Notes under the pieces: model-generated
Database searches by the model: none
What the model saw: the letters and a program-made list of their open reading frames with translations, nothing else
What the model was told of the DNA's origin: nothing
DNA from: Candidatus Acidulidesulfobacter diazotrophicus
GTDB lineage: Bacteria; SZUA-79; Acidulodesulfobacterales; Acidulodesulfobacteraceae
DNA length: 64,000 nucleotides
Direction of reading: 5' to 3'
Assembly (NCBI GenBank): GCA_004195025.1
Contig: SGBB01000002.1
Location: 1-64,000 of the forward strand
Translations under genes and position numbers: made by a program
Shown here: positions 8,358-12,991 of the stretch, piece after piece
Layout: each line of letters starts with the position of its first letter
How positions within the stretch are numbered: the first letter of the stretch is position 1

Positions 8358-9014
8358 TTATAAGTATTGTTTAACTAAATTTATTATTACAACTTTTAAT
8401 TCGTTCATGGTGTGGGTATATAGGTCAAGGTTATTTATGTCCGAAGCAAGTTTAGTTAATTTAAATTCGCTGTCTATCCACATTGAAAAATCATTTTTTC
8501 TTTCTTTTAATCTGAAGGAAGATTCAAAAAAATGATAATAGAGAGAATAAACAGACATGTTTTGTAAAATATTTATGAAATCTTCAAGAGAGTAAGCATA
8601 TTTTTTAGTATCCATAATATATGTTATTGACTTCATAAAATTAAATCTTGAAGACATTTCAACCTGTCTTGTCTTTTTATTTTTGGAAATAAAATTTTCA
8701 ATAATTGCAATAAGTTTTAATTTAAATTTTTCCATTGAATTAAAACTGAATAAATCAATGCCCGCTATTTCTTCGCCTAGAAAGTTTTCTCCAAGTATGC
8801 TTGTAATCCAATAAGCAAAATCATTAGGAGCTGCAGGCGCAGTACTATGAAATTGAAGCAAAAAATGATGCGTATGATAGTATAATATGGCATCATCAGA
8901 TATCTTAATACCTTTAAGGAGTTCTGCAAGATTTAAAGCATATATCCCTGTTAATTCAGGGAGACTTAATTTAACAAAGAACTTAAAAGGATATTGCGCA
9001 GTTTTATTATTCAT
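8358..9014 (-). CDS. DUF5752 family protein
   Basis: 218 residues. Opening KFFVKLSLPELTGIYALNLAEL, then ILYYHTHHFLLQFH and APNDFAYWITSILGE are characteristic of DUF5752. No membrane segment or signal peptide. The family has no firm function that I know. Its position immediately upstream of treT suggests a role connected with trehalose/alpha-glucan metabolism or its control. The YYHTHHF histidine cluster looks metal-binding or catalytic, but this is inference. The start ATG (complement of 9012-9014) faces the divergent DUF59 gene across a 134-bp regulatory region. Confidence 0.8.
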   Translation of the reverse strand: MNNKTAQYPFKFFVKLSLPELTGIYALNLAELLKGIKISDDAILYYHTHHFLLQFHSTAPAAPNDFAYWITSILGENFLGEEIAGIDLFSFNSMEKFKLKLIAIIENFISKNKKTRQVEMSSRFNFMKSITYIMDTKKYAYSLEDFINILQNMSVYSLYYHFFESSFRLKERKNDFSMWIDSEFKLTKLASDINNLDLYTHTMNELKVVIINLVKQYL

Positions 9015-9034
9015 GTTTTTATTTTAATACAAAT

Positions 9035-9050
9035 TGTGATAATAATCAAA
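9035..9050. promoter_or_regulatory. CRP/FNR-family-like operator candidate
   Basis: TGTGATAATAATCAAA matches the TGTGA-N6-TCACA pattern of CRP/HcpR-type regulators at 9 of 10 specified positions. It lies in the divergent region between the DUF5752 gene (minus) and the DUF59 gene (plus). The 12-mer ATTGTGATAATA that includes its left half recurs at 9065-9076, exactly 32 bp on (three helical turns). No regulator gene is in the window; assignment is by pattern only. Confidence 0.4.
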
Positions 9051-9148
9051 TTTTTTTTAAATTTATTGTGATAATATAAGAATATAATAATAATAGAAAT
9101 TTGAATAAAATTAAATGCAAAAAATTAATTAATGGGCGGTAATACATT

Positions 9149-9454
9149 ATGATAACAAAAAACGATATTTTAGAAAATTTAAAACAGATAATAGACCCGG
9201 AGCTTGAAGTAAATATAGTTGATTTAGGATTAATTTACGATATAAAAATTGATGAACAAAATAAAAAAGCGGCTGTTTTTATGACTTTAACCTCAAAAGG
9301 TTGTCCGCTAAGCAATGTAATAAAATTTGAAGTTGAAGAATCGCTAAAAAAACTTGAAGGTATAGAAAACTCAGAGGTGAATATAGTTTGGGAACCAGAA
9401 TGGAATTATTCTATGATAAAACCAGAAATTTTAGAGAAATTGCATAAGTATTAA
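9149..9454 (+). CDS. MIP18/DUF59-family Fe-S assembly-type protein
   Basis: 101 residues. DILENLKQIIDPELEVNIVDLGLIYDI, the MTLTSKGCPLSN active-site-like cysteine stretch and the terminal VWEPEWNYSMI are typical of the DUF59/SufT/PaaD family, whose members help mature Fe-S proteins. A start ATG at 9149 with GGGCGG upstream is reasonable. It lies 41 bp before a heme-copper-oxidase-like membrane protein on the same strand, forming a two-gene unit. Together with hemerythrin and DUF2249 genes nearby, this suggests Fe-S repair or assembly under nitrosative/oxidative stress; this role is inferred. Confidence 0.88.
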   Translation: MITKNDILENLKQIIDPELEVNIVDLGLIYDIKIDEQNKKAAVFMTLTSKGCPLSNVIKFEVEESLKKLEGIENSEVNIVWEPEWNYSMIKPEILEKLHKY

Positions 9455-9495
9455 AAATTAAAAATTACATTATATGTTGCAGAAGGAGAAAACTT

Positions 9496-10767
9496 ATGAA
9501 TTCCGGCGATAGTTCAGTAAACATAGCTTTAAGACATATTAAAACGGGGTCTATTTTTTTAATATTGTTTTTTTATTATATGTTTATTGATTCAAATAAT
9601 TTTTTGACTTATTTTTTTATGAACACGAAAATAATATCATTAACACATATTTTTACTTTAGGTTTTCTTTTAATGGTAATTATGGGAGCTTCTTATATGC
9701 TATTGCCGGTTGCTCTTGGGGTTAAAATAGCTTTTGAAAAAACATTTTACTATGTTTATTATACTTATATTATTGCGCTTATAGTTTTTATTTTGGGAAT
9801 GCATTATTTTAGCCCTGTCTTCATTGCGTTAGGCGGTTGTTTATTATTTGCCTCAGTTATTATTTACAATATAAATATGATGATAAGCCTGAAAAAGATA
9901 AGAAAATGGGACTACACAAGTTTTGGAATCTTATTTGCCTATATTTATCTTTTTATAGGACTTTCAATCGGCACATATATGGCACTATCATTTTATTTTA
10001 ATATAGGAGGAAAATATATTTTTGATTCTTTGATGAGCCATATTTATTTGATGTTCGCAGGTTTTATTATTATGCTGTTTATTGCAATATCTTATCGTTT
10101 ACTTCCAATGTTTTATATGACAAAAACGCCTAAAAATTTTATATGGTTAGCGGATTTCATAATATTAAATGCAGGAATTATTTTACTTGTAATTTCTTCA
10201 ATTATAGACGGGTTTTATAATTTATTCGGATTAGGTTTGTTTTATGCAGGCGGCATTTTATTATCTGCCGGAATAATTGTATTTTGTTTTGAATTTTTTA
10301 ATTTAATGAACGGCAGGATTAAAAAAAAATGGGATATTACAATTTTTTATCTGTATTTAGGTATTATTTTTTTATTGGCTGCAGTTTTTATGGGGAATTT
10401 AATATTATTTTTGCCCGAAAGAGCAATAGCTGAAAATCCCGGTATTTATTATGCTTTCGGATTTATCGGTTTATTTGGTTATGCAGGAATGGTCATAATA
10501 GGTTTTTTGCATAAAATATTTCCGTTTTTAATAAGTTTAAAAAAATTTGAAAAAGTAAAAAAAGGCGCTTATAAAGGATTAATAGGAAATATGCAAAAAA
10601 AATATATGCAATATATAGATTTAATATTATTTGCAGCTGCTGTTCCCGCCGCATCATTTTCTTTACTTATTTTAGATATAAATCTCATAAAAATATCATC
10701 GGCATTATTAATTGTCGCTTCCGTAATATTTTTGATAAATTTATTTATTATGGAAAAAAGTTCTTGA
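9496..10767 (+). CDS. Heme-copper-oxidase subunit I-like / NnrS-like membrane protein
   Basis: 423 residues, about 12 hydrophobic transmembrane segments. The repeated pattern LTHIFTLGFLLMVIMGASYMLLP (near 50) and SHIYLMFAGFIIMLFIAISYRLLPMF (near 180) resembles the paired histidine-containing helices of cbb3-type oxidase subunit I homologues and of NnrS proteins; a late HKIFPF follows. It lacks oxidase subunits II/III nearby, so it is more likely a standalone heme/NO-associated membrane protein than a terminal oxidase. AAGGAG lies just upstream of the ATG. The exact family cannot be fixed without a profile search. Confidence 0.65.
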   Translation: MNSGDSSVNIALRHIKTGSIFLILFFYYMFIDSNNFLTYFFMNTKIISLTHIFTLGFLLMVIMGASYMLLPVALGVKIAFEKTFYYVYYTYIIALIVFILGMHYFSPVFIALGGCLLFASVIIYNINMMISLKKIRKWDYTSFGILFAYIYLFIGLSIGTYMALSFYFNIGGKYIFDSLMSHIYLMFAGFIIMLFIAISYRLLPMFYMTKTPKNFIWLADFIILNAGIILLVISSIIDGFYNLFGLGLFYAGGILLSAGIIVFCFEFFNLMNGRIKKKWDITIFYLYLGIIFLLAAVFMGNLILFLPERAIAENPGIYYAFGFIGLFGYAGMVIIGFLHKIFPFLISLKKFEKVKKGAYKGLIGNMQKKYMQYIDLILFAAAVPAASFSLLILDINLIKISSALLIVASVIFLINLFIMEKSS

Positions 10768-10841
10768 TTTATTTATTTACCTTGCAGAGATTAATAAGCG
10801 GCTTTTGATGTTTGTATGCTATATAATAGCTATTGGAGAGA

Positions 10842-10916
10842 ATAACTTTGCAATCCCCGTCCTCTCACATTACAATAAATAATAGTAAACAAGTAAGAAC
10901 GTGATCGCAAAGTTAT
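10842..10916. terminator. Inverted repeat between convergent genes, possible bidirectional terminator
   Basis: ATAACTTTGC at 10842-10851 and GCAAAGTTAT at 10907-10916 are perfect 10-bp inverted arms, extending imperfectly inward (CAATC against GATCG). It lies between the convergent HCO-like gene and the TPR gene. The 55-nt loop and lack of a clean T-run make a classic terminator uncertain; a small repeat element is the alternative. Confidence 0.35.
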
Positions 10917-10981
10917 AAATTTTATACAAAAAAATAAGTAATTAAGACATTATTTTGTAAAAATAAAAAAATTAACGGCAA

Positions 10982-11362
10982 TTAGCGTCCAGGTTCCATT
11001 TCATATTTTTTAAGATATTTTTTTGCCCAGATGAGTTTAGGATTATATTGCAAAGCTTTTTTTAGCGAAACAATGCTTAATGAAGGAAAACCGAGCCTAT
11101 GAAGCGCGATTCCCATTTTACCCCATGCTTTTGCAAAATGAGGTTTTAAAATTAAAGCTTTTTGAAAATGCTGGATTGCTGTCATATTATATCCGCCATG
11201 CATTGCACCTATGCCTTTTTTGTATTGAAAAGCAGAATTGTTTACATTAGTTTTCATAGCAAACGCATTGGATTGTATAAACAGATTAAGAGCTACAGCC
11301 GAAAATATTATTAAACAAGAAATTGCAATAATATTTTTCAATTTTAGAACCGTTGGATCCAT
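10982..11362 (-). CDS. Secreted TPR-repeat protein
   Basis: 126 residues. The N-terminus has a hydrophobic stretch (about 10-30, IIAISCLIIFSAVALNLFI) followed by SNAFA, a plausible signal peptidase site. The rest is about two tetratricopeptide repeats (YNMTAIQHFQKALILKPHFAKAWGKMG and SIVSLKKALQYNPK), which mediate protein contacts. The start has a strong AGGAGGG ribosome site. The protein is small for a TPR scaffold, so it may be an accessory periplasmic binding partner. It is divergent to nothing, lying between the HCO-like and DUF2249 genes; function unknown. Confidence 0.75.
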   Translation of the reverse strand: MDPTVLKLKNIIAISCLIIFSAVALNLFIQSNAFAMKTNVNNSAFQYKKGIGAMHGGYNMTAIQHFQKALILKPHFAKAWGKMGIALHRLGFPSLSIVSLKKALQYNPKLIWAKKYLKKYEMEPGR

Positions 11363-11583
11363 AATTGGTTACCCTCCTTTATATTTACATTGTTATATAT
11401 ATTATATTATTTTTAAATTATACCTATATTATAATAATTATATATATATTAGTTTATACTTATTATTTGTATTCAGTTGTATTGTGCTTATTAGATTAAT
11501 TTTTTATATACTATCTTAAATTATAATAAATGTCAAATTTACAAAACAAAACAAAATAGAAGGATAATTAAAGATTTAATTAT

Positions 11584-12129
11584 TTAATTTCGCCAAACTT
11601 TGATAGAATATAGATCTTCCTTTATTTCTTTTGTTAAAAATTTAAATCCAGCGTCTTTTAATCTAGGGTATAAATGTATCGGTTTTCTTTCATGAATTAT
11701 TGATAGAGCGCTATCTGCGCCCATATTTTCTATAATCTCAAAAATTTTTACAAGAGGCTGGGGAGGTTCTAACTCTCTAACGTCAATTTCTGTTTCTTTA
11801 CAGTGGGCAAGTTTTTTTAAATCATCATCATTGAAATTGTTCTCATTTTTCCAATCTTCATCAATAATTTCATTGTTAGCGTTATTATAGTTGCCGGTTT
11901 TATAAAAAATAATTTCAAATCCGCCGTCAATATGGTTTGTGATATGTTCAAATCCTTTATTTTTAAGAACGGAATATAAAGGAGAAGGTTCAAAGCTATT
12001 AATAAGTTCTAATGCTTCATCGTTTTTCAAAAGATTTATTGCCCCCATTATTTTTTTAAACGGATCTTCCCCATTTTTTATATCTTCCCTGACGTCTAAT
12101 TTTATTTTCTTTAATTGTTTAATATTCAT
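11584..12129 (-). CDS. Double DUF2249 (TusA-like fold) protein
   Basis: 181 residues carrying two copies of DUF2249: residues ~10-75 (LDVREDIKNGEDPFKKIM ... SFEPSPLYSVLKNKGFEH) and ~115-178 (IDVRELEPPQPLVKIFEII ... HERKPIHLYPRLKDAGFKF). The copies have the DVRE-x-PP/EP-x-P-x2-ILEA-like signature, a TusA-related fold. The family is often found next to hemerythrin and nitric oxide related genes, as here (hemerythrin 158 bp upstream on the same strand). An Asn-rich linker joins the domains. AAGGAA precedes the ATG. Biochemical role unknown; sulfur or redox carrier is speculation. Confidence 0.82.
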   Translation of the reverse strand: MNIKQLKKIKLDVREDIKNGEDPFKKIMGAINLLKNDEALELINSFEPSPLYSVLKNKGFEHITNHIDGGFEIIFYKTGNYNNANNEIIDEDWKNENNFNDDDLKKLAHCKETEIDVRELEPPQPLVKIFEIIENMGADSALSIIHERKPIHLYPRLKDAGFKFLTKEIKEDLYSIKVWRN

Positions 12130-12187
12130 TTTATTTTCCTTTTAAATTATTTTATAGTATTTAATATTTAATCTAATTAATTAATTG

Positions 12188-12256
12188 TTTACTTACTTTA
12201 CTTACTTTACTTACTTTACTTACTTTACTTACTTTACTTACTTTACTTACTTTACT
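12188..12256. repeat. Tandem repeat TTTACTTAC, 7 copies
   Basis: Seven perfect head-to-tail copies of the 9-mer TTTACTTAC (12188-12250) plus a 6-bp partial copy. It sits between the hemerythrin stop and the DUF2249 start, so if both genes share a transcript the repeat lies in the intercistronic leader. Length variation could change spacing or expression of the DUF2249 gene. Confidence 0.95.
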
Positions 12257-12287
12257 AAATTATAAATTTTCATTATTTTTTATAGAA

Positions 12288-12782
12288 TTATTTTATACTC
12301 CTCATTTTTTCCATAATTTTATTTTTCTCTTCATTGTTCAGCTGCATTTCTGCCATATTAAACAATATATTGTTTTCCTTATCTATGTGTTCCGATAACA
12401 GCTGAATAAGACTATCGCCCGAAGATACGATATTTTCATATTTATTGTTTGATAAATACTCCGATATAGCATTTTTAAATTCTTTTGAAAGTTGTCTTGA
12501 TTGTTCGTGTTCAATCAGCATTACATGAATAGGTCCCGTTTCTATGCCTATATAATTTCCAAGAACCGGAAATAAAGCGTTTTCTTCTTTTTTAAAATGT
12601 ATTTCAAGATCTTTATCAATAAAAGATGTAATTTCGTTAAGCTGATTTATCAAATTTTTCCTTAAAGGATCGGATACCTGTCCCCCTATTTTTTTTAGGT
12701 AGCCGTCAAGATTGCCTAAAACTACTTTTACTGCTTCGTGATCGCTTTTTAGCGCATCTATAGGATCAAGCATCGTATCCAT
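12288..12782 (-). CDS. Hemerythrin HHE-domain protein
   Basis: 164 residues. Helical bundle with the HHE pattern: DALKSDHEAV (H15), LEIHFKKEENALFPVL, HVMLIEHEQSR and LSEHIDKENNILFNMAE, giving the histidine/glutamate set of a di-iron site. Such domains bind O2 or act in nitric oxide and Fe-S repair (YtfE/Ric relatives). The start has AAGGAG. The gene heads a likely hemerythrin-DUF2249 unit, with a CRP/FNR-like palindrome about 190 bp upstream. Cytoplasmic; no fused domains. Confidence 0.9.
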   Translation of the reverse strand: MDTMLDPIDALKSDHEAVKVVLGNLDGYLKKIGGQVSDPLRKNLINQLNEITSFIDKDLEIHFKKEENALFPVLGNYIGIETGPIHVMLIEHEQSRQLSKEFKNAISEYLSNNKYENIVSSGDSLIQLLSEHIDKENNILFNMAEMQLNNEEKNKIMEKMRSIK

Positions 12783-12975
12783 TTGAATCTCCTTTTTAAT
12801 TAGTTTGTTAATATCTTAAATTGTTTATCGCATAATATAATATAATATAATTACCCATTATTACAAAATACAACTGAAATAGAAATTTTCCATATTATAA
12901 TGACGATGTGTGTTTATTTTCTTTAATTATTGTTTTATATCATATATAAATTTTACCATACAAAATATAAATAAC

Positions 12976-12991
12976 AGTGATAAAAATCACA
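12976..12991. promoter_or_regulatory. CRP/FNR-family-like palindromic operator candidate
   Basis: AGTGATAAAAATCACA: perfect inverted arms GTGAT/ATCAC around AAAA. It matches TGTGA-N6-TCACA at 9 of 10 specified positions, the pattern of CRP and of the nitrosative-stress regulator HcpR. It lies about 194 bp upstream of the hemerythrin start and 474 bp upstream of the lipoyl carrier start. The related site at 9035-9050 supports a shared regulator; none is encoded here. Confidence 0.45.

Follow-up and report, generated by a model that had tools for sequence, protein, structure and literature searches.

A predicted HcpR-type nitric oxide regulon with an uncharacterised HCO-like/DUF59/DUF2249 module in Candidatus Acidulidesulfobacter diazotrophicus

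The 64,000-nucleotide stretch of Candidatus Acidulidesulfobacter diazotrophicus DNA analysed here (contig SGBB01000002.1, positions 1 to 64,000; hereafter, the window) carries genes for a DUF59 protein, a membrane protein resembling the heme-copper oxidase (HCO) superfamily, a double-DUF2249 protein and a hemerythrin. The initial annotation read positions 9014-12991 as a possible nitrosative or oxygen stress module bounded by matching operators. Which regulator acts on these operators, and to which signal does it respond? The existence of a conserved regulon with activator-like promoters, comprising both window operons and recognised nitric oxide (NO) genes, is established computationally. That this is an HcpR-type NO regulon, including an uncharacterised, recurring HCO-like/DUF59/DUF2249 module to which both window operons would belong, is a well-supported and highly probable interpretation.

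Two Crp/FNR(HcpR)-type operators are predicted at the block. One, TGTGATAATAATCAAA (9035-9050, + strand), is upstream of the DUF59-membrane protein operon; the other, AGTGATAAAAATCACA (12976-12991, - strand; TGTGATTTTTATCACT when read on that strand), is upstream of the hemerythrin-DUF2249 unit. Each has one mismatch to TGTGA-N6-TCACA, so the earlier description of two 9/10 sites in front of these units was accurate. Motif counting in the window alone was uninformative: 11 sites with up to two mismatches were observed versus 15 expected, which is not significant. The significance of the operators therefore derives from their conservation among relatives. TGTGAY-N4-RTCA was found upstream of the hemerythrin gene in 18 of 20 regions and upstream of the DUF59 gene in 21 of 23, versus a mean of ~0.01 and a maximum of 1 in first-order Markov shuffles for either gene. 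In the same test, no such site was found in the regions upstream of the membrane protein and DUF2249 genes. At both loci the operator was conserved across genera while its distance to the start codon varied, and the hemerythrin operator was near-identical across genera. The gene on the far side of the latter varies (GcvH, GGDEF-EAL or ribonucleotide reductase), indicating that this operator belongs with the hemerythrin gene. A pattern tried separately, TTGTGAYNNNNRTCA, was too narrow and matched only the DUF59 site in the genome.

Operators of this shape could also belong to the redox repressor Rex (TTGTGA-N6-TCACAA-like sites), in which case the genes would follow NADH/NAD and not NO. Rex prefers TGTGAA...TTCACA; however, the conserved sites have T or C at position 6 and A or G at position 11 and do not fit a Rex operator. 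Rex and HcpR1 are reported to share sites in Desulfovibrio (PMC5701242). The promoter geometry bears on the same point. Across the 35 representative promoters compared, TATAAT-like hexamers formed a single peak, with offset 38 relative to the start of the operator (z = 5.6; total score 276 vs 214.9 +/- 7.2 in shuffles), and 158 control sites gave no hexamer peak. The promoters were hand-picked from an alignment of the operator plus 45 nucleotides, with kinship between sequences lowered but not eliminated; the sites were required to hold the operator core, a choice that leaves the downstream hexamer unbiased. In the window, the predicted -10 hexamers are TAATAT for the DUF59 promoter (9072-9077, + strand), placed by the fixed operator spacing, and TAAAAT for the hemerythrin-DUF2249 promoter (12950-12955, - strand), placed by the operator plus 45 nucleotide alignment and the spacing test; in the latter the spacing from operator to -10 is 1 nucleotide under consensus. 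With the -10 at this fixed spacing, the operator falls near -41.5, where class II Crp/FNR activators bind. Such spacing suits an activator, and the genes described below (hcp, RIC-type, nosZ and quinol NO reductase [qNOR]) are NO-related; control by Rex is thus very improbable.

Pattern searches and individually examined stretches were used to follow the regulon beyond the window. In the genome (2,459,539 bases, 47 contigs), the sole perfect TGTGAN6TCACA precedes a CBS-HPP operon; among relatives, a site with 0-2 mismatches was present at 8 of 12 CBS-HPP loci. One-mismatch intergenic sites precede hcp (PF03063, E 2.9e-156) and a DUF2249-ScdA_N-hemerythrin gene of RIC type. The hcp site was found at all nine loci that reach the hcp start (9 genomes), and the ScdA_N gene had its site in 6/6. 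A gene for a 140-amino acid HCO-like protein with four transmembrane (TM) segments (PF00115, E 3.9e-9) had an upstream site at 9 of 10 loci. Some relatives also carried a site upstream of nosZ (two genomes) or of a cytochrome-qNOR pair (one genome). Most other one-mismatch sites in the genome were located within coding regions and were taken as chance. A pattern search of eight whole genomes gave 2-5 matches per genome, versus 0-1 with reversed-pattern controls; it was this search that led to the 4-TM gene, nosZ and the cytochrome-qNOR pair. With hcp, the RIC-type gene, CBS-HPP, the 4-TM gene, nosZ and qNOR as targets, NO or nitrogen oxides are therefore favoured over O2 as the signal. Expression of hcp has been reported in metagenome-assembled genomes AP1, AP2 and AP4, and norB and nosZ have been reported in AP3; AP1 is Ca. 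Acididesulfobacter, within Ca. Acidulodesulfobacterales (PMC6776010). Separately, operator-like sites precede a gene of 308-312 amino acids in two relatives, G002 (L221:1501-1516) and G006 (L229:1501-1516).

The genome contains a Crp/FNR-family regulator, and the PF00027 search detected only this one (G000:C18:35339-35983; HTH_Crp_2, E 2e-13). Of the 16 family genomes searched, 15 have an orthologue; the one without is 85% complete. The recognition helix REVVSR (R-E-x-x-x-R, with R, E and R at helix positions 1, 2 and 6) was invariant in 14 orthologues. An R-E-x-x-x-R helix has been reported for HcpR (PMC1274295, PMC5701242), with R180/E181 paired with site bases G3/A6 (PMC1274295). The link to HcpR-type regulators suggested in the initial annotation is thereby supported by both the helix and the TGTGA-type operators. 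Signalling by cAMP appears unlikely: in a manual alignment to CRP, the position of R82 is Pro in all orthologues. Because the orthologues share no Cys, an FNR-type Fe-S cluster, and sensing through it, is not expected.

A regulator of DNR/NnrR type, which would make the window genes accessories of denitrification, is an unlikely alternative but one that carries real weight. It would account for the sites at nosZ and qNOR in some relatives and for the presence of DNR among the better PDB matches of the regulator, and COG4309 (DUF2249) genes are co-transcribed with norB in other organisms (PMC1274295). However, neither a full-length HCO nor an NO reductase was found in the window genome, in which the 140-residue 4-TM protein is the sole PF00115 match. 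That genome has hcp, and the combination of an R-E-x-x-x-R helix with a TGTGA motif is the one reported for Desulfovibrio HcpR (PMC1274295). In one relative (G009; 1.9 Mb, 7 contigs), HCO/NOR matches and nosZ were found and hcp was not.

Open reading frame and family searches recovered all five genes of the initial annotation. On the + strand are the genes for the DUF59 / FeS_assembly_P (MIP18-SufT family) protein (9149-9454; 101 amino acids; PF01883, E 1.8e-18), whose Cys52 is invariant in an alignment of 23, and for the 12-TM HCO-superfamily-like membrane protein (9496-10767; 423 amino acids). On the - strand are those for the double-DUF2249 (TusA-related) protein (11584-12129; 181 amino acids; PF10006 in two stretches, E 2.4e-27) and the hemerythrin-domain protein (12288-12782; 164 amino acids; PF01814, E 9.1e-19). 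The TusA model matched the double-DUF2249 protein with E 3.1e-6, slightly below the model cut-off. From its sequence, the block is read as two convergent operons, DUF59-membrane protein and hemerythrin-DUF2249x2. The two pairs face each other in nearly all relatives with long enough contigs. One relative (G008) retains all four genes in an altered order; on the contig of G006, the DUF59-membrane protein pair does not have the hemerythrin and DUF2249 genes next to it, so the four-gene block is not universal. Where contigs are long enough, the four families stay together in nearly all relatives, G006 excepted, and do not scatter independently. The fifth gene, for a TPR protein with a hydrophobic N-terminus (10982-11362, - strand), had been counted as part of the cluster, a placement that its position does not support: it is not conserved there among relatives; congeners carry it elsewhere (divergent to DUF59), and no copy turned up at the locus in other genera. 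A phosphoribosyltransferase gene precedes DUF59 in other genera, yet the operator falls between them, and it is therefore not counted as a member. Here, a phosphoribosyltransferase-like gene related to it is downstream of CBS-HPP (L071:8454-9113). A PHROGs search gave no match. A perfect tandem repeat, TTTACTTAC, with 7.7 copies, lies between the hemerythrin and DUF2249 genes (12188-12256).

The 423-residue membrane protein matched no Pfam, NCBIfam or PHROGs model, and a PDB sequence search with its profile returned one insignificant match. Its AlphaFold2 model (predicted local distance difference test score [pLDDT] 75) has 12 long helices, the number of TM segments in the HCO/NOR fold, and the best Foldseek matches were cbb3, COX1 and NorB (E ~1e-4). 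In a single-target hhalign search, a 43-sequence profile aligned with COX1 over residues 9-382 (E 1.4e-6); its alignment with the NnrS profile was weaker (E 3.4e-5). The 4-TM regulon protein aligned with all three repeats of the membrane protein. The label HCO-I/NnrS-like given initially is therefore kept for the HCO-like fold and dropped for NnrS, since PF05940 was not matched by the protein, nor by any other in its own genome. H51 (TM2) and H182 (TM6) were present in 43/43 sequences, and a single TM10 His, H339, was conserved within the family only. There is no His on TM7, whereas HCO and NO reductases have His pairs on TM7 and TM10 for the binuclear centre and hemes. A binuclear centre is therefore not expected; the protein is HCO-derived and lacks the oxidase/NO-reductase metal site. 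Of 30 family genomes, 27 gave a match, and completeness is at most 90% in the other three. Among the 386 genomes searched, a distant homologue was found in 24 that belong outside the family. DUF2249, DUF59 and/or hemerythrin genes adjoin the homologue at 17 of 20 such loci examined; two of the loci also have a Crp/FNR gene, and one a DUF2249-ScdA_N-hemerythrin gene.

A di-iron ligand pattern of four His and two Glu is of the YtfE type. The window hemerythrin has this RIC/YtfE-type pattern: H15 and H62 were conserved in 95% of sequences, and E66, H92, H132 and E136 in 100%. The RIC model matched it with E 1.7e-12 and 47.6 bits, below the NCBIfam cut-off of 204.7, and the Pfam search found PF01814 only, with no ScdA_N domain. 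These ligands bear on a response to oxygen, in which an FNR-like regulator would control an oxidase-like protein together with a hemerythrin that binds O2. Links to O2 do occur among hemerythrins and HCO-fold proteins. The regulator orthologues, however, have no conserved Cys to hold an FNR-type Fe-S cluster, the hemerythrin ligands are of RIC type, the TM7 His pair required to reduce O2 or NO is missing from the membrane protein, and the co-regulated hcp and RIC-type genes indicate NO. An oxygen response is accordingly improbable. A second hemerythrin paralogue adjoins GcvH and has no operator (L061:7179-7679, L065:8011-8538); it is closer to the window copy, with 68-69% identity.

Rex, a DNR-type regulator and oxygen are all less well supported than the NO regulon. 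In the mechanism proposed for that regulon, a Crp/FNR protein acting like HcpR or DNR would sense NO. Its probable binding site is TGTGAY-N4-RTCA, with the centre near -41.5, from which it would recruit RNA polymerase (class II activation), switching on hcp, the RIC-type gene, CBS-HPP, the 4-TM HCO-like gene and both window operons, and in some relatives presumably also nosZ and the quinol NO reductase. The RIC-like hemerythrin may handle iron-nitrosyl species, DUF59 may serve Fe-S reassembly, and the HCO-like protein may hold one heme or iron within the membrane. We infer direct operator binding, an NO signal and activation from the sequence evidence; that the proteins of the block repair NO damage is inferred less surely.

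Several points weigh against this interpretation. The best PDB sequence matches of the regulator are generic Crp-family proteins and DNR, so HcpR, DNR and NnrR are not separable. A site upstream of the regulator gene itself was looked for and not found. The right half-site at DUF59 is TCAAT/TCAAA instead of TCACA. For DUF59, DUF2249 and the HCO-like protein, the roles given are guesswork based on family and context.

Tentatively, the HCO-like protein might combine with DUF59 and DUF2249, in many cases also with a RIC-like hemerythrin, into a conserved membrane-linked system against NO damage that lacks the binuclear centre. We consider it possible, though rather doubtful, that such a system would use a membrane heme or iron to sense or scavenge NO and would pass iron or sulfur to Fe-S repair. 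It would recur in many unrelated lineages and, in the open-licence literature covered, is not known to have been described experimentally. The proposed NO regulon turns uncharacterised families into a testable prediction that names a single regulator, its operators, the inferred -10 elements and a few targets, established NO genes among them. Regulation and neighbourhood together link DUF2249, DUF59 and an HCO relative without catalytic function to NO defence, and an uncultured acid-mine lineage is given a specific stress physiology. Because the same partners recur outside the lineage, their function could be addressed in a cultivable host.

Parts of this arrangement resemble known systems. 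In Thermus nitrate respiration, DrpA/DrpB likewise include a DUF2249 protein, whose expression depends on a regulator of nitrogen-oxide respiration, DnrT; DrpB differs from the 423-residue protein in being a membrane-associated protein of 273 amino acids (PMC6282519). The window hemerythrin resembles RIC/YtfE/DnrN/ScdA in its four His and two Glu and in matching RIC models; unlike them, it lacks ScdA_N and falls far under the RIC cut-off, and a separate DUF2249-ScdA_N-hemerythrin gene shares the same regulon. DUF2249 genes rise in haloarchaeal denitrification (PMC11218638), and an association of DUF2249 with the HCO superfamily is attributed there to Pei et al. 2014. The HCO-superfamily relatives, as represented in that citation, are similar in their 12 helices, COX1 hhalign match and DUF2249 link, whereas here only the TM2 and TM6 His are common to 43/43 sequences and the TM7 pair is absent. 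COG4309 (DUF2249) genes co-transcribed with norB are under NnrR/NsrR (PMC1274295). Here too, DUF2249 is placed under a predicted nitrogen-oxide regulator and adjoins an HCO-superfamily gene, but the domain occurs twice in a protein paired with a hemerythrin, and the neighbouring HCO-like protein has no catalytic metal site.

The closest parallel is the HcpR regulon (PMC1274295, PMC5701242, PMC12915319). In Desulfovibrio and other anaerobes, hcp and hemerythrin-like genes are described among the targets of HcpR (PMC1274295), and in C. difficile the induction of hcp by NO requires HcpR (PMC12915319). The regulon found here shares with them a Crp/FNR regulator with an R-E-x-x-x-R helix, wTGTGA-N6-TCACAw-type operators, and hcp and hemerythrin/RIC-type genes as targets. 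It differs in that the regulator gene does not adjoin hcp, and it adds CBS-HPP, the 4-TM HCO-like gene and the DUF59-membrane protein and hemerythrin-DUF2249x2 pairs.

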